Virus record (IMG/VR): IMGVR_UViG_3300020469_000159
Location: 1 to 31,796 of that record
Length of the DNA: 31,796 nucleotides
Strand: one strand, 5' to 3'
From: a virus
Part shown: piece after piece, positions 1,493 to 31,796 of the stretch
How the letters are laid out: each line of letters starts with the position of its first letter
How positions within the stretch are numbered: the stretch's first letter is position 1
Notes under the pieces: generated by a model
The model's database searches: none
Told to the model about the DNA's origin: nothing
The model's input: the letters and a program-made list of their open reading frames with translations, nothing else
Program-made: the position numbers and the translations under genes

Positions 1493-3208
1493 ATGCCTAG
1501 ATTTCAAATCACGATAGAAGATATCAATGCAACTTATGTCTCCCAGTTGGGGGGCATAGGTTGCTGCTATGAGGGACAGGTGCTGAACGTAGAGGAGAGC
1601 GGCTCTGTCTTTACTGAGGACAGTAACAGGCTCATCGGTGGCAGGGTATGTATACCTGTGCACAATGGGATTGAAGACACTAGCAACTGGTGGCATATAG
1701 GGAATGAGACCCCTTACGGTCTTAAAGTAAGTAGGGTTGATGATCCTATGCTTAGTGCTTGGGGGTATGACCAAGATGCGGCTTATGGGATGGCTGCTAT
1801 GACCGAGGACCGCAAGCTAAAGAGGTTCATCATGGACTTCGTACGTGAGTCCGGTGCGATATATGGCTACGAGAATACCCGTGGTAATTGTGTCAATACG
1901 GGACAATACATGAATACTGGTCAGAGGTTGGGGTACTTCAACCCAAAGCGTTCTGAGGAGTTCAAGGGTAAGATATCCCTGTTCAAAAACCATGCTGATG
2001 CTATTCGTGATGAGGACGGTAGCAGACGTGTGGCTATGAAGATAGGTCGTGCGTTCAAATGCATGTTCCCTAATTTTGCTGACAAGACCATTGAGCGTAT
2101 GGTAGATGACTATCGTTCCAAGATGGTATCCCCTGATCTTATCTTGAAGTCTGGTAAATCACGTGATGACTTTGAGAAGGCATATGGTGGTGCATTGGGT
2201 ATGAATGAGAACCCTGAGACTCATCACTACAGGAAGTTCTTGGGTAACTCATGCTTGCGTCCTCAATACTTATACTCAGATGACAACTACCATAAAGACT
2301 ATTTGCCTTATCACCCTGCTCAAGCCTATGCTAGTGGTGACTTTACTGTGTATTGGGCTGAACAACCTGATGGTAAGATTGCTGGTCGCTGCGTTGTTCT
2401 TACTACTTATCCTGATAAGCCTAGGGCTGGGCCTCTGTATGGTCTATCAGAACACGCCATGAACATTATCGGTAAGGCTATTGAGAATACTAGGGCAGAT
2501 GATAGTTGGGATATCTTTAGGCATGATGGTTGGGCTGGTGCTAAGATGCTTAATATTCGCTACAGGGATCGTGATAATCAGTATGTTGCACCTTATCTTG
2601 ATGTAGAGCCTACACGTCTAAAAGAATTAGATTGTAAGCATTTACAGATTGATTGGAAGGGGCCTATTAACGCTGGTTCTTATCGTGGTGTGCTTGAGGG
2701 TAATTCCTTTCATTGCGATGATTGTGGTTGCGATTATGATGAGGATGATAGTTACTACTCAGAGTGTACAGGCACTCAGTTGTGTGAGAGTTGCTATCAA
2801 AACACACATTCACAGTGTGAGGTTGATGACTGCTACTACCACAACGATAACATGACAGAGGTAAACCATGTTACACGTTGGGGTTATAGAACATACATGG
2901 TACATGACAGTAACCTACAAGATCATGCTTGTTTCTGTACTGATGGTGAGTGGTGGCGTGAAGAGGACGTTACATTCTGTGAGTATGAGAATGAGTATAT
3001 CTCACCTAATGATATAGATAACTACTTTACCTCAGATTGGGACAGTGAACTATACCCTCTGTCAGAGCAGGTGGTTGTTAGAAATACAGATGGTACTGAT
3101 TCCCATGTATCTAGTGATGAAGCAGATGATAATGATGATTATGTACAGCTTGGTAAAACAGGTATATATCATCCAGTAGTAAAAGAAAAAGAAGGAGAAG
3201 TAGCATAA
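1493..3208 (+). CDS. large unknown protein with C-terminal zinc-ribbon-like domain, 571 aa
   Basis: I do not recognise this 571-residue protein as a named family. The N-terminal 400 residues look like a globular mixed alpha/beta region rich in Tyr, Asp and Gly. A Cys-rich module follows: C408-x2-C411, C413, C425, C431-x2-C434, then C442 and C447 with nearby His. This is the layout of a zinc ribbon or treble clef, so zinc binding is likely. The C-terminus is strongly acidic. The start has a strong AGGAGGG site at 1481-1487, and the stop overlaps the peptidase ATG (TAATG at 3206-3210), so the two are probably translationally coupled. It could be a nucleic-acid- or protein-binding partner of that peptidase. 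Confidence 0.75.
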   Translation: MPRFQITIEDINATYVSQLGGIGCCYEGQVLNVEESGSVFTEDSNRLIGGRVCIPVHNGIEDTSNWWHIGNETPYGLKVSRVDDPMLSAWGYDQDAAYGMAAMTEDRKLKRFIMDFVRESGAIYGYENTRGNCVNTGQYMNTGQRLGYFNPKRSEEFKGKISLFKNHADAIRDEDGSRRVAMKIGRAFKCMFPNFADKTIERMVDDYRSKMVSPDLILKSGKSRDDFEKAYGGALGMNENPETHHYRKFLGNSCLRPQYLYSDDNYHKDYLPYHPAQAYASGDFTVYWAEQPDGKIAGRCVVLTTYPDKPRAGPLYGLSEHAMNIIGKAIENTRADDSWDIFRHDGWAGAKMLNIRYRDRDNQYVAPYLDVEPTRLKELDCKHLQIDWKGPINAGSYRGVLEGNSFHCDDCGCDYDEDDSYYSECTGTQLCESCYQNTHSQCEVDDCYYHNDNMTEVNHVTRWGYRTYMVHDSNLQDHACFCTDGEWWREEDVTFCEYENEYISPNDIDNYFTSDWDSELYPLSEQVVVRNTDGTDSHVSSDEADDNDDYVQLGKTGIYHPVVKEKEGEVA

Positions 3209-4236
3209 TGTTTAGTTTAGTAGAGATGTTGCGTTATATGCGGCCCGATGGTTGTGAGGCGCAAAGGTTGTTTTGTCAGAGGTTCTTGGAACCTGTGTTC
3301 GGTTATCCAGATGTGCATGGCAATTACATCAAGATTATCAGTGATGAGACTGGTCAGTATCCACCTATCTGTTTCACTGCTCACCACGATACCGTACACA
3401 AGAAGGGTGGTATGCAGAATGTCCTAGTCATCAATGATGTGGCTTCTGTTGCTGATCCTTCTACCTCATCCTGTTTGGGTGCTGATTGTACTACAGGTAT
3501 CTGGCTTATGCTTAATATGATTGAGGCTGGTGTTGTTGGTACGTATGTTGTCCATGCAGCAGAGGAGATTGGTTGCTTGGGTAGTCAGGCGTTGGTCAAG
3601 GCTAAACCTCAGTGGCTTGATGAGGTCAAGGCTGTCATATCATTTGATCGGTATGGTAACAAATCTATCATCACTCATCAGTCATCCTATCGTACTGCAT
3701 CTGATGAGTTTGCTGAGAGCCTGTCCGATGCCCTAGGTATGCCTCAGTTGCAACCTGACGATGGTGGTTCCTATACTGACAGTAACGAGTATGCTGGTGT
3801 TGTGTCCGAGTGTACAAACGTCAGTGTGGGTTATTACAAACAGCATACATCCAATGAGACACAGGACTTGCGGTATGCCAATGAGTTGTCCGAGCGTCTT
3901 ATCAATGCTGACTGGTCTCGTCTGGTGTTTGTGCGTGACCATACTGCAGAGCCTGAGTGTCTATGGGGTGTTGATTGGTCACGTGGTTGGGGTGATATTA
4001 CTGGCTACAATGGTAGTACGTACAGATCAAAGTTTGACTACTATGACGATTCCTGCCTAGCCTACGAAGACGATGTAGAAACCTTACGTCTTGAGGATGT
4101 AATAGAAGACAATGTACAAGCAGTAGCCAAGTTGCTGCACTCTTATGGATACAGGTATGATAGTTTACTCGAGGAGATGGGTGTCAGAGATAGTGTAGCT
4201 GCTACATACGCAAGAGTAGAATACGTAAAATCATAG
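3208..4236 (+). CDS. M28/M20-like zinc metallopeptidase, 342 aa
   Basis: The order of putative metal ligands matches co-catalytic two-metal aminopeptidases and carboxypeptidases: H59-x-D61 in AHHDTVH, D93 in LGADCTTG, the catalytic pair E119-E120 in HAAEEIGCLG, D147 in SFDRYG, and H213 in GYYKQHTSNE. All are present, so an active hydrolase of peptides or acylated amino acids is likely. No signal peptide is visible, so it should act in the cytoplasm. About 100 C-terminal residues after the peptidase core are acidic and not recognised. It is translationally coupled to the zinc-ribbon protein upstream. The substrate is unknown; a host protein, a peptide or a small conjugate are all possible. Confidence 0.8.
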   Translation: MFSLVEMLRYMRPDGCEAQRLFCQRFLEPVFGYPDVHGNYIKIISDETGQYPPICFTAHHDTVHKKGGMQNVLVINDVASVADPSTSSCLGADCTTGIWLMLNMIEAGVVGTYVVHAAEEIGCLGSQALVKAKPQWLDEVKAVISFDRYGNKSIITHQSSYRTASDEFAESLSDALGMPQLQPDDGGSYTDSNEYAGVVSECTNVSVGYYKQHTSNETQDLRYANELSERLINADWSRLVFVRDHTAEPECLWGVDWSRGWGDITGYNGSTYRSKFDYYDDSCLAYEDDVETLRLEDVIEDNVQAVAKLLHSYGYRYDSLLEEMGVRDSVAATYARVEYVKS

Positions 4237-5144: not shown

Positions 5145-6074
5145 ATGGCAATAAAAAGAAGTAGGAAGGTAGGGGTAGGATTGCATCCTGCTTCTACTGT
5201 CGAAGAAGTAGTTACCTATTACTTTAACACGCCTAGGTTTAGGGATTTATCTAATAACACCCATAGAACTTATCACTACAGCCTGATCAAACTCTGTTCC
5301 TGTAATGTCGTAGGGAAAAGAGTAGGAGATATTCGTATCAACAAACTTACCCCTCAAATATGTGACACCTTGTATAACGATTGGGCAGAGGATGTTAGTG
5401 TTAGTCATGCTAATGAAATGTCACGTATCTTTTCTATGCTTCTAAATATGTGTGTTGGTCTTGATCTTATGGATCGTAATCCAATGTCAAAGGTTCACAA
5501 AAGAACTACAGAAGTAAGGTCAGTGGTGTGGACTAATGATCAGGTGGTGTCTTTTCTTGATACTTCCTTCTCTGATTTTAAGTGGAGAAATATAGGTCTG
5601 TTGGTAATGCTTGCATATGAATGGGGGCAAAGACCTGTGGACATACGAAACTTGGAGTGGGACAATATAAACTTGGAAGATGGTATTGCTACTATTAAAC
5701 AAACCAAGAGAGGAGCAGAGGTACAATTACCTATTGACGAGCAGATGAAAGAGATGCTAACAGAGCAAGAACTTCACTGGGGCTTCCAGCCATACGTAGT
5801 ACCCCACTACAGGAAGCAGGACAGGGCTTACAGGCCATACACGTGTGGTCAGGTAGGTATCCTAGTCAACCAAGTTAAAGAGGCTGCAGGGTTGCCTGAT
5901 GAGCTTAAAGCTGGTGACTTACGAAAGACTGCTATTGTTGAAATGATAAAAGGAGGAGCAGACAGCTTACAGATCATGTCAGCTACAGGACATAAAAATG
6001 TAGCAAGTTTAAATCCCTACAACAAACACAACTTGGAGACTGCAACCGCAGCTCTTAATAGGAGAAAAAGATGA
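5145..6074 (+). CDS. int: tyrosine recombinase / phage integrase, 309 aa
   Basis: The protein has the two-domain layout of lambda-type integrases: an N-terminal SAM-like core-binding domain (about residues 17-110) and a C-terminal catalytic domain. Catalytic residues are visible as R163 (EWGQRPVDIR), K188 (TKRG), R260 (GDLRKTA), H283 (TGHKN) and the nucleophile Y292 (NPYNKH). The first His of the usual HxxR box is replaced by G257, which is unusual. It would integrate or excise the phage genome by site-specific recombination. Length is normal for the family. A TAGGAA sequence precedes the ATG. Dyad-rich promoter DNA lies directly upstream, suggesting separate control from the operon before it. 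Its presence suggests a temperate life style, although no clear CI-type repressor is seen. Confidence 0.9.
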   Translation: MAIKRSRKVGVGLHPASTVEEVVTYYFNTPRFRDLSNNTHRTYHYSLIKLCSCNVVGKRVGDIRINKLTPQICDTLYNDWAEDVSVSHANEMSRIFSMLLNMCVGLDLMDRNPMSKVHKRTTEVRSVVWTNDQVVSFLDTSFSDFKWRNIGLLVMLAYEWGQRPVDIRNLEWDNINLEDGIATIKQTKRGAEVQLPIDEQMKEMLTEQELHWGFQPYVVPHYRKQDRAYRPYTCGQVGILVNQVKEAAGLPDELKAGDLRKTAIVEMIKGGADSLQIMSATGHKNVASLNPYNKHNLETATAALNRRKR

Positions 6075-6244: not shown

Positions 6245-6372
6245 TGAGAAAACCTAACCCAATGGCGAAAGACTTGAGGCAACCTAAATACAAGCCTCAA
6301 GTTATTCCTAATAAAAAGAAACCCTCAATCCGAAAGGAGAAGCATAAAAATGATAAACAGAGAGACACATAG
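6244..6372 (+). CDS. very small basic protein, 42 aa
   Basis: This 42-residue frame is coupled to the previous gene by a TGATG overlap and itself overlaps the next gene by 23 bases. It is extremely rich in Lys, Arg and Pro and would be largely disordered. There is no separate ribosome-binding site, so translation would depend on coupling. It may be a nucleic-acid-binding peptide or a non-functional frame; the evidence is the junction alone. Confidence 0.3.
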   Translation: MRKPNPMAKDLRQPKYKPQVIPNKKKPSIRKEKHKNDKQRDT

Positions 6373-6523
6373 GGAGTTGTGTGAAAAGTATAAAGAGTTA
6401 GAGGAGGATTTACGTCAGAAACATGAGGAAATAGAGTATTGGAAACAGCAGTCTTATACACTAGAGGTGCGTAATAAGCAATTAAAGGCTGAGTTAAAAC
6501 TTTGGATGGGAACAGGAGTATGA
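6350..6523 (+). CDS. coiled-coil protein, 57 aa
   Basis: An AGGAGA at 6335-6340 precedes the ATG at 6350. The 57 residues are almost wholly predicted helix with Leu, Tyr and Trp at heptad-like spacing and many Glu and Lys, so a short coiled coil is likely. The TGA at 6521-6523 overlaps the ATG of the Na/phosphate transporter gene at 6520 in an ATGA junction, so the two proteins are probably made together. It could be a soluble partner of that membrane protein. No Cys and no membrane span are present. Confidence 0.6.
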   Translation: MINRETHRELCEKYKELEEDLRQKHEEIEYWKQQSYTLEVRNKQLKAELKLWMGTGV

Positions 6524-6954
6524 ATAATTATGTATATACAGCCATTGGACTTGTGGTCTTTTACATTGGCCTCAAGATGTTTAGTGGGGGAATGAAATCT
6601 ATGGGCAACATAGACCACTTGACTTGGTTCTTAGGCAATCCAATCTATATGTTCTTTGGGTCAATCGCTATGACACTGGCGTGGCAGAGTAGTAGCCTTA
6701 GCACTACAGCAATCATTGCTTTAGTTGCATCAGGTGTACTACCCCTACCTGCTGCTGTGGCTGCTGTACTAGGGGCTAACGTAGGTACAACAGGTACGAT
6801 CTGGCTGGCAGGACTTCTAGTGTCTGACGGTATGCCAAGGGGTGATACACTACGCATAGCCATGATACACACTGGCGTCAATCTTTTGATGGCAATAAGT
6901 CTGTTGCCATTTGTAAATTACATAGCTAAATTTGTAGGTAAGGTAGGCCAATGA
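6520..6954 (+). CDS. half-length Na+/phosphate cotransporter (NptA / PF02690-like), 144 aa
   Basis: The signature pair of type II Na/phosphate cotransporters is present: QSSS at residues 56-59 followed by TTAIIALVASG, then LGANVGTT at 84-91. A C-terminal segment (TLRIAMIHTGVNLL, then LLPF) also matches the family. There are about four hydrophobic segments. Full transporters of this family have two inverted repeats, each with a QSSS motif; this protein has one repeat only, so it may work as a homodimer or with a host protein. The ATG at 6520 overlaps the previous stop and follows AGGAG at 6514-6518; an upstream ATG at 6502 lacks such a site. If active, it would bring phosphate into infected cells for DNA synthesis. 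Confidence 0.8.
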   Translation: MNNYVYTAIGLVVFYIGLKMFSGGMKSMGNIDHLTWFLGNPIYMFFGSIAMTLAWQSSSLSTTAIIALVASGVLPLPAAVAAVLGANVGTTGTIWLAGLLVSDGMPRGDTLRIAMIHTGVNLLMAISLLPFVNYIAKFVGKVGQ

Positions 6955-7268
6955 GACAACACATATACGACACGTGGACACTGATCATGGACTCAGATAG
7001 AAGCCCACTAAAGAATATACCTGACAACAATGCCCGTCACTTGATCTTGCAGATACTTGCATGGATGTGGTGTATTGTATTTAGTATTTTCTTGGGTAGC
7101 TATGTTGTGTTTGGACTGACAGCAATAGCTCACGTGTTACTTTTAGCAGCAATAGCTATTACCGTTGGTACGTTTGATACTGCCAGTAGAAATCCTAGAG
7201 TGTTATCTGATTTTGCTAGGCGTGTTGATGGGTACAATGGTAGGCGTAACAATGGGGAGCATGACTGA
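6951..7268 (+). CDS. two-span membrane protein, 105 aa
   Basis: Residues about 28-48 and 52-75 form two adjacent hydrophobic helices (HLILQILAWMWCIVFSIFLG and an Ala/Ile/Leu-rich helix). A hydrophilic N-terminus of 25 residues and a basic, Arg/Asn-rich C-terminus flank them, so both ends are probably cytoplasmic. It has the size and hairpin shape of some holins, but also of many unassigned phage membrane proteins. The gene overlaps the transporter gene by four bases (ATGA) and the next small membrane gene by one (TGATG), so it belongs to the same membrane-protein cluster and may be a partner of the half transporter. Confidence 0.65.
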   Translation: MRQHIYDTWTLIMDSDRSPLKNIPDNNARHLILQILAWMWCIVFSIFLGSYVVFGLTAIAHVLLLAAIAITVGTFDTASRNPRVLSDFARRVDGYNGRRNNGEHD

Positions 7269-7399
7269 TGGGAAGCTTTTTTATATTATCACTAAAAATA
7301 GTAGTATTAGTTGCTATCTTTTGGTTCTCAGCAATTCTACTAAGTGATGATGTGAATAACTTGTATCAAGAAGTATTTATTAAGGAGAAACCAGTATGA
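7268..7399 (+). CDS. very small membrane protein, 43 aa
   Basis: This frame begins at a TGATG overlap with the previous stop and ends in an ATGA overlap with the next gene. The 43 residues are mostly one hydrophobic helix (about residues 4-25, FFILSLKIVVLVAIFWFSAI) followed by a short charged tail. A single-pass membrane protein is likely. The clean junctions on both sides are the evidence for coding; its function is unknown. Confidence 0.5.
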   Translation: MGSFFILSLKIVVLVAIFWFSAILLSDDVNNLYQEVFIKEKPV

Positions 7400-7566
7400 G
7401 TACAAATAACTATTGCACAACTAAAGGCTTAGGCAAAGCATTCGCTGTAATCGTTGTTCTGATGGTGGGTGTACCGTTAGGTATTGCTATGACCTATGAT
7501 GACTACCCAAAGTATTGCAGTATGTCTATCCTACTACCGTGTATAGGAGTATTTACTGATGATTGA
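7396..7566 (+). CDS. small membrane or exported protein, 56 aa
   Basis: The 56-residue frame has a hydrophobic segment (about residues 14-31) after a Lys-containing N-terminus, like a signal anchor, then a Cys-containing tail with C41 and C49. AAGGAG at 7382-7387 precedes the ATG, which overlaps the preceding stop (ATGA). The C-terminus overlaps the start of the ThyX gene by eight bases. It could be exported with a disulfide bond or stay anchored. No family is recognised. Confidence 0.5.
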   Translation: MSTNNYCTTKGLGKAFAVIVVLMVGVPLGIAMTYDDYPKYCSMSILLPCIGVFTDD

Positions 7567-8245
7567 AGTAACATACGTAGACCACATGGGGTCAGACCTT
7601 AGTGTTGCTAATGCAGCTAGGGTAAGCTTTGGCAAGAAGAGTGAGATGGATACGAGTGATCAGTGGGGTCCGCCTAAATTAAAAGAGAAGGATGCTAAAC
7701 TAATCCACTATCTAGCCAAGCATAAACATATGTCCCCCTTTGGTCATGCCTTTGCATCCTTTCATGTCAAGGCTCCTATATTTGTAGCTAGACAATTAGT
7801 TAAGCATAAGTTCTTACGATGGAATGAGATTAGTCGTAGGTATGTAGAAGATGACCCTGAGTTTTATATGCCTGATCAATGGCGAGGTAGAGCTGATGAC
7901 AAGAAGCAGGGTAGTGCTGGTATAGTAGATATAGACAAGTATTGGACAGAGAACGTTTCTGATGATGGTTGGACCCCAATGCCTAGCCTTGCTTATGAAG
8001 ATGCTTTATATTGTTACCATGGCCTTCTTAATGCAGGAGTATGCCCAGAACAAGCACGTATGGTGTTGCCGCAAAGCATCATGACTGAATGGTATTGGTC
8101 AGGTAGTCTTGACGCTTTTGCTGACATGTGCAACTTACGATGCAAAGAGGATACGCAACTTGAAACTCTACAAGCAGCACAGTGTGTGTCTCAAGGCATG
8201 AGAGATTTATTTCCTGTATCATGGGGGGCTTTAGTTGATGGGTGA
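7559..8245 (+). CDS. thyX: flavin-dependent thymidylate synthase ThyX, 228 aa
   Basis: ThyX methylates dUMP to dTMP with methylene-tetrahydrofolate, FAD and NADPH. The signature RHRx7S appears here as K82-H83-K84, seven residues, then S92, within ARQLVKHKFLRWNEISRRYV, so both arginines of the usual RHR are lysine. Other family features are present: the N-terminal SVANAARVSFG, the HMSPFGHAFASFHVKAP segment and the C-terminal ARMVLPQSIMTEWYWSGS. Length is normal. AGGAG at 7545-7549 supports the start. It overlaps the primase-helicase gene by eight bases and, with the RNR and MazG downstream, belongs to the dNTP supply module. Confidence 0.92.
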   Translation: MIEVTYVDHMGSDLSVANAARVSFGKKSEMDTSDQWGPPKLKEKDAKLIHYLAKHKHMSPFGHAFASFHVKAPIFVARQLVKHKFLRWNEISRRYVEDDPEFYMPDQWRGRADDKKQGSAGIVDIDKYWTENVSDDGWTPMPSLAYEDALYCYHGLLNAGVCPEQARMVLPQSIMTEWYWSGSLDAFADMCNLRCKEDTQLETLQAAQCVSQGMRDLFPVSWGALVDG

Positions 8246-27237: not shown

Positions 27238-28149
27238 CTACCCATTAGTCAAATATCTAATGATAGCAATACCAGAGCCACCAGTTGCTGTATTTCCTGC
27301 ATCATATAAACCTCCAGCACCACCTCCTGTATTGGCAGAACCTGACGTAGCGGTATTTGATGTGGTAGAACCATTACCTGCACCGCCTTTATTAGCAGTT
27401 GTAGCTGTACCGCCACCTAAACCACCTGTATTGTCCCCTTGACCACCACCACCACCAGCATAATAGACCGTTGCGCCAGAAATATCTGACGTTATTGCCG
27501 TACCGCCAGCGCCACCAACTCCATTTGACGCACCACCATTTTGTCCAGCGCCACCTGCGCCACCACCACCGCCACCAGTATAAGGTGGATTAGCACTTGC
27601 CCGTCCAGCGCCACCTGCATTTCCTGACCCTGTTTCGCCAGTACCTTGCCCTTGTGTTGAACTACCCCCCGGCGAGCTACCGTTACTTGTGCCGCCACCG
27701 CCACCAGAGCCACCGTCAGCACCATCATCAGTGCCAGCATATCCGTTTGTACCACCACCGCCGCCTCCGACAGCAGCCGTTATTATGCTACCAGCAGAAG
27801 TATTACTTCCGTTAGCCCCTCGCGCGCCTCCGCTTGCGCCAGCAGCGCCTCCTGCACCAATAGTAATTGTATACGAGCCTGCGGATACTTCTTTGGAATT
27901 TGTAGAAACAACGCCGCCACCACCGCCGCCACCACCTAAATTACCGCCGCCACCACCGCCGCCTGCTACAACTAAACATTGAACTGAGGTGCCACTTGGG
28001 GCAGAATTTACCGTAAATGTACTGGACGAAGTAAAGGTGTGGATTGTGTAACCACCAGAGGTTGTAACAGTTCCACCGGTTGCACTGATAGCAACGCTTC
28101 TGTTTGGAAAAGAACCAAAACCTAACATATTATAACCAAAGCTACTCAT
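27238..28149 (-). CDS. glycine-rich tail adhesin, 303 aa
   Basis: Residues about 1-65 form a beta-rich head that includes TGGTVTTSGGYTIHTFTSSS and QCLVVAG. From about 64 on the protein is dominated by runs of Gly (up to eight in a row) broken by Ala, Asn, Ser and Thr, then a conserved-looking C-terminus ending IAIIRYLTNG. Gly-run proteins of this kind are known as receptor-binding adhesins of phages such as Salmonella phage S16, where they form polyglycine sandwich folds. A role in host recognition is likely by analogy. The gene is visibly richer in G+C than its neighbours. Its ATG overlaps the previous stop (TAATG). Confidence 0.75.
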   Translation of the reverse strand: MSSFGYNMLGFGSFPNRSVAISATGGTVTTSGGYTIHTFTSSSTFTVNSAPSGTSVQCLVVAGGGGGGGNLGGGGGGGGVVSTNSKEVSAGSYTITIGAGGAAGASGGARGANGSNTSAGSIITAAVGGGGGGTNGYAGTDDGADGGSGGGGGTSNGSSPGGSSTQGQGTGETGSGNAGGAGRASANPPYTGGGGGGAGGAGQNGGASNGVGGAGGTAITSDISGATVYYAGGGGGQGDNTGGLGGGTATTANKGGAGNGSTTSNTATSGSANTGGGAGGLYDAGNTATGGSGIAIIRYLTNG

Positions 28150-29018
28150 TATGCATCATTCGCCGCATCAGTAGTAAAGAATATTTTAATACCCAAAAGT
28201 CTAGCATCCCCACTTTGATCATCAGCACTTACATCACGCATAATTTGAAAGAATGTCATTGTGTCTACTGCTGCACTAGCAACAGTTACTGCTCCACTTT
28301 CTGCAGTTACATCTAAATCATTTGATGTACCACTATGTGCTTTTGCTGTAGCCACGACATTAGTGCCAAAGGCAGTATTACAGCTTGCATTATCTGCAAT
28401 GCCAACACCAGATAAACCCCAAGCCACTGTACCTGTATTAGTTCCTGTTACCGTAAAAAATACTTGAAATGTTATTGTGCCTTCATTCCATGATTTAGGA
28501 AAAGCAATACTAAATTGAGCATTTTCGTCACTACTTGCATCAAAATCTAAACATTTAATTTCAGGACCATTAGATAATTCAACTTGTGCTAAATCTGCAC
28601 ACCCATTTGTAGTATTAGGATACATGGCAGCAGCAGGTACATATATAGTTTCTTTACCTGCCTGTTTAACTGATGATGAAGTAAGAGAGGTACTACCTAA
28701 TATTAAATCCCCATCAGGTACAATAAGATCACCTGTCATTGTACCACCAGTTAAAGGCAGTGCATCTGCTGATTGGAATGTACCAAAAGAAACAATCTCT
28801 ACTACATCATCTGCTGTAGCACCAGAGGCCAACACAACGTCTGACCCATTGGTAGCTGTAAAGTCTGCCCTAGCTAAGTGTACACCGTTAAGATATACAG
28901 AAACAAAGTTAGGCGTATACCCTTGGGTAGTAAATGTAGTTTGATTTGATGTGGCTGTATATACGTCCCGACTTTGTGTAGCCTGTGGGGTAGGTATTGC
29001 GCCTATGTATCCTGACAT
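28149..29018 (-). CDS. tail-fibre-like protein, 289 aa
   Basis: The N-terminal 80 residues (MSGYIGAIPTPQATQSRDVY, then PNFVSVYLNGVHLARADFTA) match the start of the paralogue at 30073-31116 and form a beta-rich module common in marine phage tail fibres. A short collagen-free linker with LTGGTMTGDLIVPDGD follows, which is the repeat type seen in many fibre shafts. The C-terminal 170 residues are a different beta-rich head domain, not shared with the other fibres here, with two Cys near its middle. AAGGAA precedes the ATG. It is probably a receptor-binding or fibre-connecting protein. Confidence 0.7.
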   Translation of the reverse strand: MSGYIGAIPTPQATQSRDVYTATSNQTTFTTQGYTPNFVSVYLNGVHLARADFTATNGSDVVLASGATADDVVEIVSFGTFQSADALPLTGGTMTGDLIVPDGDLILGSTSLTSSSVKQAGKETIYVPAAAMYPNTTNGCADLAQVELSNGPEIKCLDFDASSDENAQFSIAFPKSWNEGTITFQVFFTVTGTNTGTVAWGLSGVGIADNASCNTAFGTNVVATAKAHSGTSNDLDVTAESGAVTVASAAVDTMTFFQIMRDVSADDQSGDARLLGIKIFFTTDAANDA

Positions 29019-29027
29019 TTTGTTTCC

Positions 29028-29756
29028 TTATGAATTAACTATTCCGAACATAGTAATTTCGCCTGACTCAATGTTTCCACTACTAAATAAAAATTTAACT
29101 GCATCAACGTCTTCTGCGGCAAGCCTTGCACTGCCAGATGACACAGATGTGTATGAAGTAGACATATTATAAATATAATTACCAGAATCTTGCGTGTCAT
29201 ACGTTATACCAGAACAATTAGCAAAAGTGTATGAACTTGTGTTATGCGGAGCATATAACATAAATGGGCCTGACACACCAAACTCGTTTGAATCACTGCC
29301 CACCTTATAACCTGCATAACCTGCAACAGTGAGACCTGTAACATCAGTAGTACCAGCAGTATGATAATCACCAGATGATGAAGAATAAGAACTGCCAGTA
29401 TTAGTGCTTGTTTGGGCTATTAATAGAACATCATCCGTTGCGGGTATTACGTGTTGAAGCATAAACTGATAATGGTCATATTTGCTTGCATCAAAACCTG
29501 TGAAGGCTACTGAGGCAGCATTACTTATAGCACCAGACGAAGATATAAACTCTAACCCACCACCTATCTTGGTTCCCATATAAGTAGCTAACCTACTCAT
29601 GGTAGCCTTGCGGTTAGTACCCCCTGCCCCATCGTCTACAATCATAAGGTCAGCATCTACAAGAGCAGCACCAATATCTGTACCTGCGTCAATGTCTAGT
29701 AGTGACAGACCCACCCCACTACCAGTAAGGTTTGCTGTATCTCTTGCTTTGGTCAT
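29028..29756 (-). CDS. tail-fibre protein with shared C-terminal domain, 242 aa
   Basis: After a short N-terminus the protein has a linker module (GTDIGAALVDADLM, then VDDGAGGTNRKATMSRLATY) almost identical to that of the gene at 30073. Then comes a C-terminal domain of about 150 residues starting near FISSSGAISNAA and ending SSGNIESGEITMFGIVNS. The same domain is in the proteins at 30073 and 31126. The variable parts lie between conserved ends, as in receptor-binding tips. AAAGGAT precedes the ATG. It probably forms the distal part of a fibre, possibly as a trimer. Confidence 0.7.
   Translation of the reverse strand: MTKARDTANLTGSGVGLSLLDIDAGTDIGAALVDADLMIVDDGAGGTNRKATMSRLATYMGTKIGGGLEFISSSGAISNAASVAFTGFDASKYDHYQFMLQHVIPATDDVLLIAQTSTNTGSSYSSSSGDYHTAGTTDVTGLTVAGYAGYKVGSDSNEFGVSGPFMLYAPHNTSSYTFANCSGITYDTQDSGNYIYNMSTSYTSVSSGSARLAAEDVDAVKFLFSSGNIESGEITMFGIVNS
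29560..29699 (-). repeat. fibre linker repeat (copy A)
   Basis: This segment encodes DIDAGTDIGAALVDADLM through KIGG and is nearly identical in protein sequence to 30584-30723, with many synonymous base differences. The two copies join the N-terminal parts of different fibre proteins to the same kind of C-terminal domain. Confidence 0.8.
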
Positions 29757-29766
29757 GTTCTATCCT

Positions 29767-30048
29767 TTAGCTAGGCTTGGTAGGCCACGTAATACTATTA
29801 GGGAAGCCACTCTGTGCTGGTACATCCCGTAGTGCAGTACGATAAGTAGTCCATGCACTAGACATGGTTACATCACTGTTACCCATCCAATCGGTAGCAG
29901 CTAGTAGTGCATCCCGTTCTTGACGGACAGAAGCAGCAGCACGTGTGTCTGCAGCATCAGCCCATGCTTTTTCTTCAGCATCACGTGCAGTCTCTTCGTC
30001 TGCTGTGAACTGAACCATTTCTCCGTTAATGTTATGATATCTTGGCAT
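29767..30048 (-). CDS. tail-fibre assembly / chaperone-like protein, 93 aa
   Basis: The N-terminus binds nothing obvious, but the C-terminal half (RDALLAATDWMGNSDVTMSS, then WTTYRTALRDVP, then ITWP) matches the conserved segment at the end of many phage tail-fibre assembly proteins, with the TDW, YR-LRD and WP residues. Such proteins help fibres to fold or trimerise. It lies between two fibre genes, which supports the role. An Ala/Glu/Asp-rich helix occupies residues 16-47. AAAGGAAAAG precedes the ATG. At 93 residues it is short for the family. Confidence 0.7.
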   Translation of the reverse strand: MPRYHNINGEMVQFTADEETARDAEEKAWADAADTRAAASVRQERDALLAATDWMGNSDVTMSSAWTTYRTALRDVPAQSGFPNSITWPTKPS

Positions 30049-30072
30049 TTCTGCTTTTCCTTTGTTGTTGTG

Positions 30073-31116
30073 TTATGATTCTTTAATTCCATACATTCTA
30101 ATTTCACCAGACTCTATATTTCCTGAACTAAAAAAGAATTGTGCTGCGTTTACATTAGCAGTAGCTATTCTTGATCCACCATAAGTTGCATAATAACCAG
30201 AGTAGTAAAAACCCGTTGTACCTTCAGAAACCCCACCTCCTGAAATAACATGAGTGTGAGAGCTAGTAATATGGGGTGATCTACACTCAACTACTAAACT
30301 TACACCCAGTTCTCCAGAAGCAGACCCAACAGTTTCAGGGGCAATATTGTGTATAGCAGTAACACCAGTAGTACTACCAAGAGTATGATAATGATCACTG
30401 CCAGAATCGTAACTACTGCCACCATTAGAACTAGTTCTAGCATATAATTGTACATTATCATCAACAGGAATAACATTTCTAAATTCAAATTCGTAATGTA
30501 CATATTTACTGCTATCAAATTGAGTAAATGATTGAGTAGCAGCATTACTAATAGACCCAGATGAAACTATAAACTCTTTAAGTCCACCAATTTTAGTTCC
30601 CATATAAGTTGCAAGCCTAGACATTGTAGCCTTACGATTAGTGCCACCTGCACCGTCATCTACAACCATCAAGTCTGCATCTACTAGTGCTGCACCAATG
30701 TCTGTGCCACCGTCTATGTCTAGGTCAACCAAAGGTATTGAGCCATCTGGGACAACTAGACTATTTGCAGTAACACTACCAGTTGCAGTGACATTACCAC
30801 TAACTGTTACGTTACCACTAAACGTACCACCAGAGGCTTTACTTACTGTATCAGCAGTTTCAAAACTACCATGTGACACAATAACAATCTGGTCATTCTC
30901 AGTAGCACCTGTGCTTAACGTAATGGTAGAACCATTCGTGGCAGTGTAGTCTGTGCCATCTACTAGACGTACACCATTCTGATACACATGCACAGCACCT
31001 ACCGTATAGCCAACATTAGTAATACTAGTTTGGCTGGCTGTTGCCGTAACTGTGTGTTTAGTTTCTATTTGTTGTGGGGATGATATTGCTACCTTACCAC
31101 CAATATAACCTGCCAT
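30073..31116 (-). CDS. tail-fibre protein combining both paralogous modules, 347 aa
   Basis: The N-terminal 85 residues (MAGYIGGKVAISS, then GAVHVYQNGVRLVDGTDYTA) are the module shared with the gene at 28149. Next comes a shaft-like repeat (GNVTVSGNVTATGSVTANSL), then the DIGAALVDADLM linker, then the C-terminal domain shared with 29028 and 31126, ending GNIESGEIRMYGIKES. So one protein carries what is split over two genes further on. It may be the full-length fibre from which the others arose. The middle of the C-terminal domain contains several His and differs from its paralogues, as expected of a receptor-binding surface. The sequence before the ATG is nearly the same as before the gene at 28149. 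Confidence 0.75.
   Translation of the reverse strand: MAGYIGGKVAISSPQQIETKHTVTATASQTSITNVGYTVGAVHVYQNGVRLVDGTDYTATNGSTITLSTGATENDQIVIVSHGSFETADTVSKASGGTFSGNVTVSGNVTATGSVTANSLVVPDGSIPLVDLDIDGGTDIGAALVDADLMVVDDGAGGTNRKATMSRLATYMGTKIGGLKEFIVSSGSISNAATQSFTQFDSSKYVHYEFEFRNVIPVDDNVQLYARTSSNGGSSYDSGSDHYHTLGSTTGVTAIHNIAPETVGSASGELGVSLVVECRSPHITSSHTHVISGGGVSEGTTGFYYSGYYATYGGSRIATANVNAAQFFFSSGNIESGEIRMYGIKES
30584..30723 (-). repeat. fibre linker repeat (copy B)
   Basis: This is the counterpart of 29560-29699 and encodes DIDGGTDIGAALVDADLM through KIGG. A degenerate third form (NIDGGTSRGTT to ATYMGTKIGG) is in the partial gene at the right edge. Confidence 0.8.
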
Positions 31117-31125
31117 ATTGTTTCC

Positions 31126-31796
31126 TTATGAATTAACTATTCCGAACATAGTGATCTCACCTGATTCAATATTACCACTAAGCATTTGAAATTTTATTGC
31201 ATCCACATCTGCTGCTACTAAATGAACTACCCCAGCATCAGTTACTTCTCTAATCTGACCACTTGTATCCATCATTACACCATTACTAGTAGCATAAGTA
31301 TAAGTGGTTAAATGAGGATTAAATAATATAAATATAGTACATACACCAAACTCATTTGTGTCTGAACCCATATTATAACCATTACCAAGACTTACATCAA
31401 AACCAGTTCTGTCAGTTGTTAGTGTTTGATGATAATTACCATTAGTAGAATCGTAACTAGAACCGCCATCTGTAGACGCAAGAGCTTGTAAAGAAGTATT
31501 ATCTGTAGCAGGAACTACATTTTGTACCCAAAATTGATAGTGATCATATTTACTTGCATCAAACTGGGTAAATGAAACATTAGCTGCATTAGAGATTGCT
31601 CCACTAGAGGCAAGAAACTCCATGCCCCCACCAATTTTAGTTCCCATATAGGTAGCCATAGTCTCAACAGAAGTCATACGCATAGTGCCAGCATCGTTGA
31701 TCAAGACACCATCACCATCAGCAATAGCAGTTGTCCCTCTGGATGTACCACCGTCTATGTTATCTAGTTCAGTTTTGGTTACACCAGTGCTTGCCA
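31126..31796 (-). CDS. tail-fibre protein, 5' end beyond the window
   Basis: The frame is open to the right edge of the window, so the protein's N-terminus is outside. The visible part starts ASTGVTKTELDNIDGGTSRG, a typical phage fibre shaft motif, then a linker ending MATYMGTKIGG and the C-terminal domain (FLASSGAISNAANVSFTQFD to GEITMFGIVNS) shared with the genes at 29028 and 30073. The last seven residues are identical to those of the 29028 gene. A TTG at 31704 could be read as a start, but the frame clearly continues upstream with fibre-like sequence. It is probably the first of the three fibre genes in transcription order. Confidence 0.75.
   Translation of the reverse strand, partial: ASTGVTKTELDNIDGGTSRGTTAIADGDGVLINDAGTMRMTSVETMATYMGTKIGGGMEFLASSGAISNAANVSFTQFDASKYDHYQFWVQNVVPATDNTSLQALASTDGGSSYDSTNGNYHQTLTTDRTGFDVSLGNGYNMGSDTNEFGVCTIFILFNPHLTTYTYATSNGVMMDTSGQIREVTDAGVVHLVAADVDAIKFQMLSGNIESGEITMFGIVNS

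Follow-up and report, generated by a model that had tools for sequence, protein, structure and literature searches.

The window, meaning the whole stretch of 31,796 nucleotides that was analysed (IMG/VR virus record IMGVR_UViG_3300020469_000159), carries on its plus strand, at 6520-6954, an ORF with an ATG start encoding a protein of 144 aa. The ORF shares ATGA overlaps with its neighbours on both sides (upstream ORF 6350-6523, downstream ORF 6951-7268), and ThyX, primase/helicase and DNA polymerase genes lie further downstream. A TTG at 6502 stays a possible start, because that position is an in-frame ATG in many close relatives. The first-pass annotation had placed the motifs QSSS and GANVGTT in this ORF, and both were found, at residues 56-59 and 85-91. 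The features of the window are listed below.

3208-4236, plus strand: gene of the phage early region resembling a zinc aminopeptidase; its 342-aa product matches Peptidase_M28 at E 1.4e-7
5145-6074, plus strand: phage integrase (PF00589), close upstream of the half transporter; the copy in L011 is likewise near an integrase
6502-6519, plus strand: possible alternative start TTG, in-frame extension MDGNRS (ORF reading; relatives)
6520-6954, plus strand: single-repeat Na_Pi_cotrans (PF02690) protein, 144 aa (profile search, six-frame search, phmmer against the PDB, AlphaFold2)
6526-6600, plus strand: predicted TM1, residues 3-27 (AlphaFold2 model)
6640-6729, plus strand: predicted re-entrant hairpin, helices 41-55 and 58-70, with a break at Q56-S57 (AlphaFold2 model)
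6685-6696, plus strand: QSSS motif (of 144 distinct viral sequences, all keep SSS and 143 keep Q)
6772-6792, plus strand: GANVGTT motif, inside predicted TM2, residues 76-101 (G, A, N, G, T and T invariant in the 144; AlphaFold2 model)
6844-6942, plus strand: predicted TM3, residues 109-141, with invariant H117 and N121 (AlphaFold2 model; 144-sequence alignment)
6951-7268, plus strand: 105-aa protein, hydrophobic by eye, ATGA overlap with the half transporter
6951-7566, plus strand: three consecutive, overlapping ORFs between the half transporter and thyX, small (105, 43 and 56 aa) and by eye hydrophobic
7559-8245, plus strand: ThyX-type thymidylate synthase; in the window's group no downstream neighbour is more common (homologue in L011)
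28149-31704, minus strand: several adjoining ORFs with similar stretches (e.g. MATYMGTKIGG), like a paralogous tail-fibre-type gene array

The profile search proposed by the first-pass annotation gave a match of the 144-aa protein to PF02690 at 54.8 bits (E 1.3e-14), above the gathering cut-off of 29.1, and a six-frame search of the whole record with this profile returned the same gene only. Full-length NCBIfam models stayed under their curated cut-offs (TIGR00704, 47.1 against 210.1 bits; NF037997, 36.1 against 50; TIGR01013, 28.2 against 306.15). When all PDB chains were searched with phmmer, SLC34A2a (9z60 and related entries) was the only significant match; 9z60 was matched twice, independently, at residues 106-214 and 390-475, once per repeat. 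A profile of the viral family scored these two repeats at 41.8 and 37.4 bits, and cellular homologues were also matched twice with scores alike for both repeats (e.g. 30.2 and 40.2 bits). As both repeats are matched at similar scores, the protein corresponds to one repeat, about equally like RU1 and RU2, whereas a full NaPi-II/NptA transporter has two inverted repeats in one chain. The separate alignment to each repeat of 9z60, together with the half size of the gene in 262 of 262 loci, bears out the earlier claim of a single repeat.

The protein thus shares with SLC34/NaPi-II (PDB 9z60, SLC34A2a; PF02690) the repeat anatomy, the QSSS hairpin, the GxNxGT motif and the H..N motif, both repeats aligning with it, but it has one repeat instead of two inverted ones and lacks the linker loop and the Na1 residues Q206 and D224. 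NptA/YjbB-type bacterial Na/Pi proteins (TIGR00704, NF037997) resemble it by the profile match over one repeat and differ in size, Chloroflexota matches having 355-721 aa and Escherichia coli YjbB 543 aa. The 105-aa protein encoded downstream was considered as the missing second half and rejected: it gave no PF02690 signal and, with a homologue in only 28 of the first 222 loci, it is no obligate partner. Judged by sequence, the product of 6520-6954 is a true member of the family, consisting of one intact repeat and not a fragment.

An AlphaFold2 model built with 72 viral relatives (alignment A3) reached a pLDDT of 85 and a pTM of 0.76; a first run with 20 close relatives only had a pLDDT of 60, and its model was not used. 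Helices were predicted at residues 3-27, 32-38, 41-55, 58-70, 76-101 and 109-141, forming TM1, a hairpin that breaks at its QSSS tip, the GANxGTT-bearing TM2, and TM3. Helices 41-55 and 58-70 are too short for spanning and are broken at Q56-S57, which fits the expected re-entrant hairpin, and the QSSS hairpin on which the first-pass annotation had staked its reading is thus present in a confident predicted structure. Foldseek searches with both models against the PDB and BFVD returned nothing significant; this carries little weight, because the solved homologue 9z60 was itself not among the hits. The predicted number of membrane crossings is odd, so that a single chain alone would be unable to supply both inverted halves. 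The single repeat with odd crossings in the model, and the single gene without a sister gene in the viral contigs and loci read, are as expected of a dual-topology homodimeric half transporter.

The gene is under strong purifying selection (pN/pS of about 0.03-0.1 between the window gene and its nearest relatives). Across 144 distinct viral sequences SSS, L60, T62, T63, G85, A86, N87, G89, T90, T91, H117 and N121 were invariant, and Q56 and T93 had one exception each; the ligand-equivalent set Q56, S57, S58, T62, T63, N87, T90, T93, H117 and N121 is therefore invariant or nearly so. In human NaPi-IIa, Q417, S418, S419, T451 and T454 have been assigned to the Na3 site, and phosphate has been placed almost on the symmetry axis of the repeats (PMC6325988). 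In our alignment these Na3 residues correspond to Q56, S57, S58, T90 and T93 of the phage protein. Of the Na1 residues, D209 corresponds to D/E103 and N227 to N121, while Q206 and D224 are replaced (L/M/F100 and T/S118). This replacement predicts about two Na+ per phosphate and electroneutral transport, as do the two Na+ sites that a homodimer would form round one phosphate. It would also fit another small anion as the substrate, or conduction of Na+ only, given that a symmetric site would hold Na2/Na3-like ligands alone and that two Na1 positions differ from NaPi-IIa; we regard this as improbable, the QSSS and GANxGTT signature and the hairpin being those of the phosphate family.

At least 566 relatives were found in IMG/VR viral contigs, which answers the first-pass suggestion to look for the gene in other phages. 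Each of the 222 loci first read, and each of 262 in total, had one half-size gene; some of the 262 overlap on a shared contig, and 169 gene sequences among them are distinct. Searched with PF02690 as whole records, 20 viral contigs (48-177 kb) and one MAG (holding L082) each had exactly one match, and no second repeat was found in any frame of the 20 viral contigs. A pseudogene was rejected on the selection and the uniform size. A small, hydrophobic, phage-borne product might suggest a holin-like protein, some other small membrane protein without a transport function, or the remnant of a decayed transporter. Such a reading is very improbable and largely refuted by the invariant polar motifs under strong purifying selection, by the single size class of the many relatives in all loci read, by the missing second repeat and by genomic contexts without a tie to lysis genes.

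Among 50,697 isolate phage records the window protein had no match at E<=0.01. For a relative, L145, there were 13 matches, all weak (<60% identity), to Staphylococcus, Listeria and faecal records that lack annotation and are probably bacterial DNA; INPHARED OR849875, OR844989 and OR848251, unannotated Staphylococcus/Listeria 'phage' entries that match Na/Pi weakly, are among those that may be host DNA. No PHROGs family matched the half transporter, a plasmid search gave no match, and no relatives of E. coli YjbB were detected in viral contigs by a scan sensitive to close relatives only. In Chloroflexota, the phylum of G001, 19 of 101 genomes had PF02690 matches, all in open frames of 355-721 aa except that of L082. 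The sole half-size gene among these 101 sampled genomes of that one phylum thus lies on a phage-like contig. This contig (L082, PAAV01000031.1, Chloroflexi MAG) was binned as bacterial and resembles a phage with metabolic genes beside the half-size gene. The gene, widespread in viral contigs, is missing or nearly missing from isolate genomes.

The 169 distinct genes were found in 86 different upstream/downstream contexts, and no neighbour was constant. In HMO-2011-type phages, to which L011 and its relatives belong by their DNA polymerase, the gene adjoins ThyX and a DnaB-type helicase; the window phage is a CRP-6-type carrier. Elsewhere, in T4-like and other phages, the gene lies upstream of the large terminase (L136), between portal and head morphogenesis genes (L117), near tail genes (L064), after a T4-type DNA polymerase (L199), near a gp32-like protein (L203) or beside a GMP-reductase-like gene (L145). 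The position beside nucleotide and replication genes noted at first pass is therefore correct for the window but is no general rule, packaging, head or tail genes being the neighbours in other phages. Genes for PnrA/Bmp-type substrate-binding proteins were seen near the half transporter at L167:465-1547 and, by shared cluster only, at L120:8553-9569.

DNA identity between the window gene and its counterparts in HMO-2011-type phages was mostly 85-92%, that of the adjacent 105-aa gene about 88% where present, and that of thyX about 71-84%. Downstream beyond thyX no DNA match was seen with the HMO-2011-type pieces, and the replication genes had little or none. High identity in the gene against little or none in the replication genes shows that it moves as a one- or two-gene cassette. 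The gene tree required 31 label changes for 8 groups (minimum 7), with few alignment columns and labels taken from partial contigs. The half-size gene is thus a small cassette that passes from phage to unrelated phage and has no constant partner.

The absence of both a constant neighbour and a second copy favours either a homo-oligomer or a partner from the host. In the latter case the half transporter would pair with, or poison, the host's own two-repeat Na/Pi transporter as a regulatory or dominant-negative subunit. One copy per contig, the lack of a constant phage partner and the resemblance to both cellular repeats would suit such a role, but the gene occurs in several phage types with presumably different hosts and has kept every presumed ligand, more than simple inhibition would require; we consider a host partner rather unlikely.

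We put at about even chances the reading that the half-size protein, a natural member of the type II Na+/phosphate cotransporter superfamily, works as an antiparallel homodimer in phosphate uptake; dimerisation, the antiparallel arrangement, Na+/phosphate specificity and the uptake direction are what we infer for it. Each chain would provide one repeat (TM1, the re-entrant QSSS hairpin, TM2 with GANxGTT, and TM3), and two identical chains would be inserted in opposite orientations. The pair would rebuild the two-fold symmetric binding site that RU1 and RU2 make in full transporters, with phosphate on the symmetry axis and, to either side of it, one Na+ bound through QSS and positions T90/T93. 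In the infected cell the Na+ gradient would then drive extra phosphate inward for phage DNA synthesis.

Uptake is the part of this reading that the full-size superfamily member YjbB counts against: it is described as a phosphate exporter and is reported to switch on PhoB/PhoR when over-expressed (PMC11389368). Transport direction cannot be read from sequence, and the phage protein might instead export phosphate or let Na+ or phosphate leak; as part of host takeover or starvation signalling, this would reduce the phosphate in the cytoplasm or the Na+ gradient. Among solved structures the nearest relative is, however, an SLC34 cotransporter, from a family known for uptake, and in the window's group the gene adjoins ThyX and DNA polymerase, where phosphate demand is highest. 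Export or leakage is accordingly held to be unlikely, if slightly less so than a host partner.

The dual topology implied by an antiparallel homodimer is permitted in the window clade, where the K+R difference between the two membrane sides is only 1 (bias -1). Outside it the bias ranged from -1 to -3, and the long form of one clade is strongly N-in. In this clade (47 of the 144) the N-terminus is lengthened by a stretch that is conserved, coding and strongly basic, with a mean of 7.4 K/R and a pN/pS of 0.22; the extension, MKKKDRKLYDSWKYKK, precedes the half transporter in L143-L269 (about 47 distinct genes, e.g. L158 upstream of 8001). It should hold the N-terminus inside, so that dual topology in this clade would need a shorter start too. 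Most members have an internal start, either an ATG or a TTG placed one codon before that, and the conservation of a Shine-Dalgarno sequence ahead of it is suggestive and not uniform. As a lead only, two starts could give both orientations from one gene.

Dual-topology half transporters such as EmrE/SMR and Fluc (PMC3755343, PMC4560821) likewise have one gene, one repeat and, as in the window clade, near-balanced charge; the phage protein would similarly act as an antiparallel homodimer, with a different fold. PF02690 was reported in 2022 in eight HMO-2011-type genomes, with phosphate uptake proposed (PMC9038755), and those metagenomic genes are very probably of the same family as the half transporter. 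The first-pass interpretation is supported in part. PF02690 in marine phages was thus already published; no mention of the half size, the spread to other phage types or the small-cassette transfer was found in the passages on it. In the open-access literature no mention of a half-size phage Na/Pi protein was found.

Inverted-repeat transporters are thought to derive from the fusion of half-size genes. To our knowledge, working half-size transporters exist for few small folds only, and no natural half-size form of the re-entrant-hairpin NaPi/DASS-type transporters has been described. We tentatively raise the possibility that the phage gene encodes a mobile, self-sufficient, single-repeat elevator-type Na+/phosphate transporter, a dual-topology homodimer like the presumed ancestral half of the NaPi-II fold, for which one clade may obtain both orientations from two start codons, one giving an extended basic form and the other a short form that begins with ME. 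If so, the gene-fusion step could be tested directly on this natural half of a cotransporter with re-entrant hairpins and probably an elevator mechanism, and a phosphate transporter of medical importance would gain a model of 144 residues. In phage biology the gene stands out as widespread, phosphate-related and without a PHROG match, travelling as a small cassette among phages that are unrelated.
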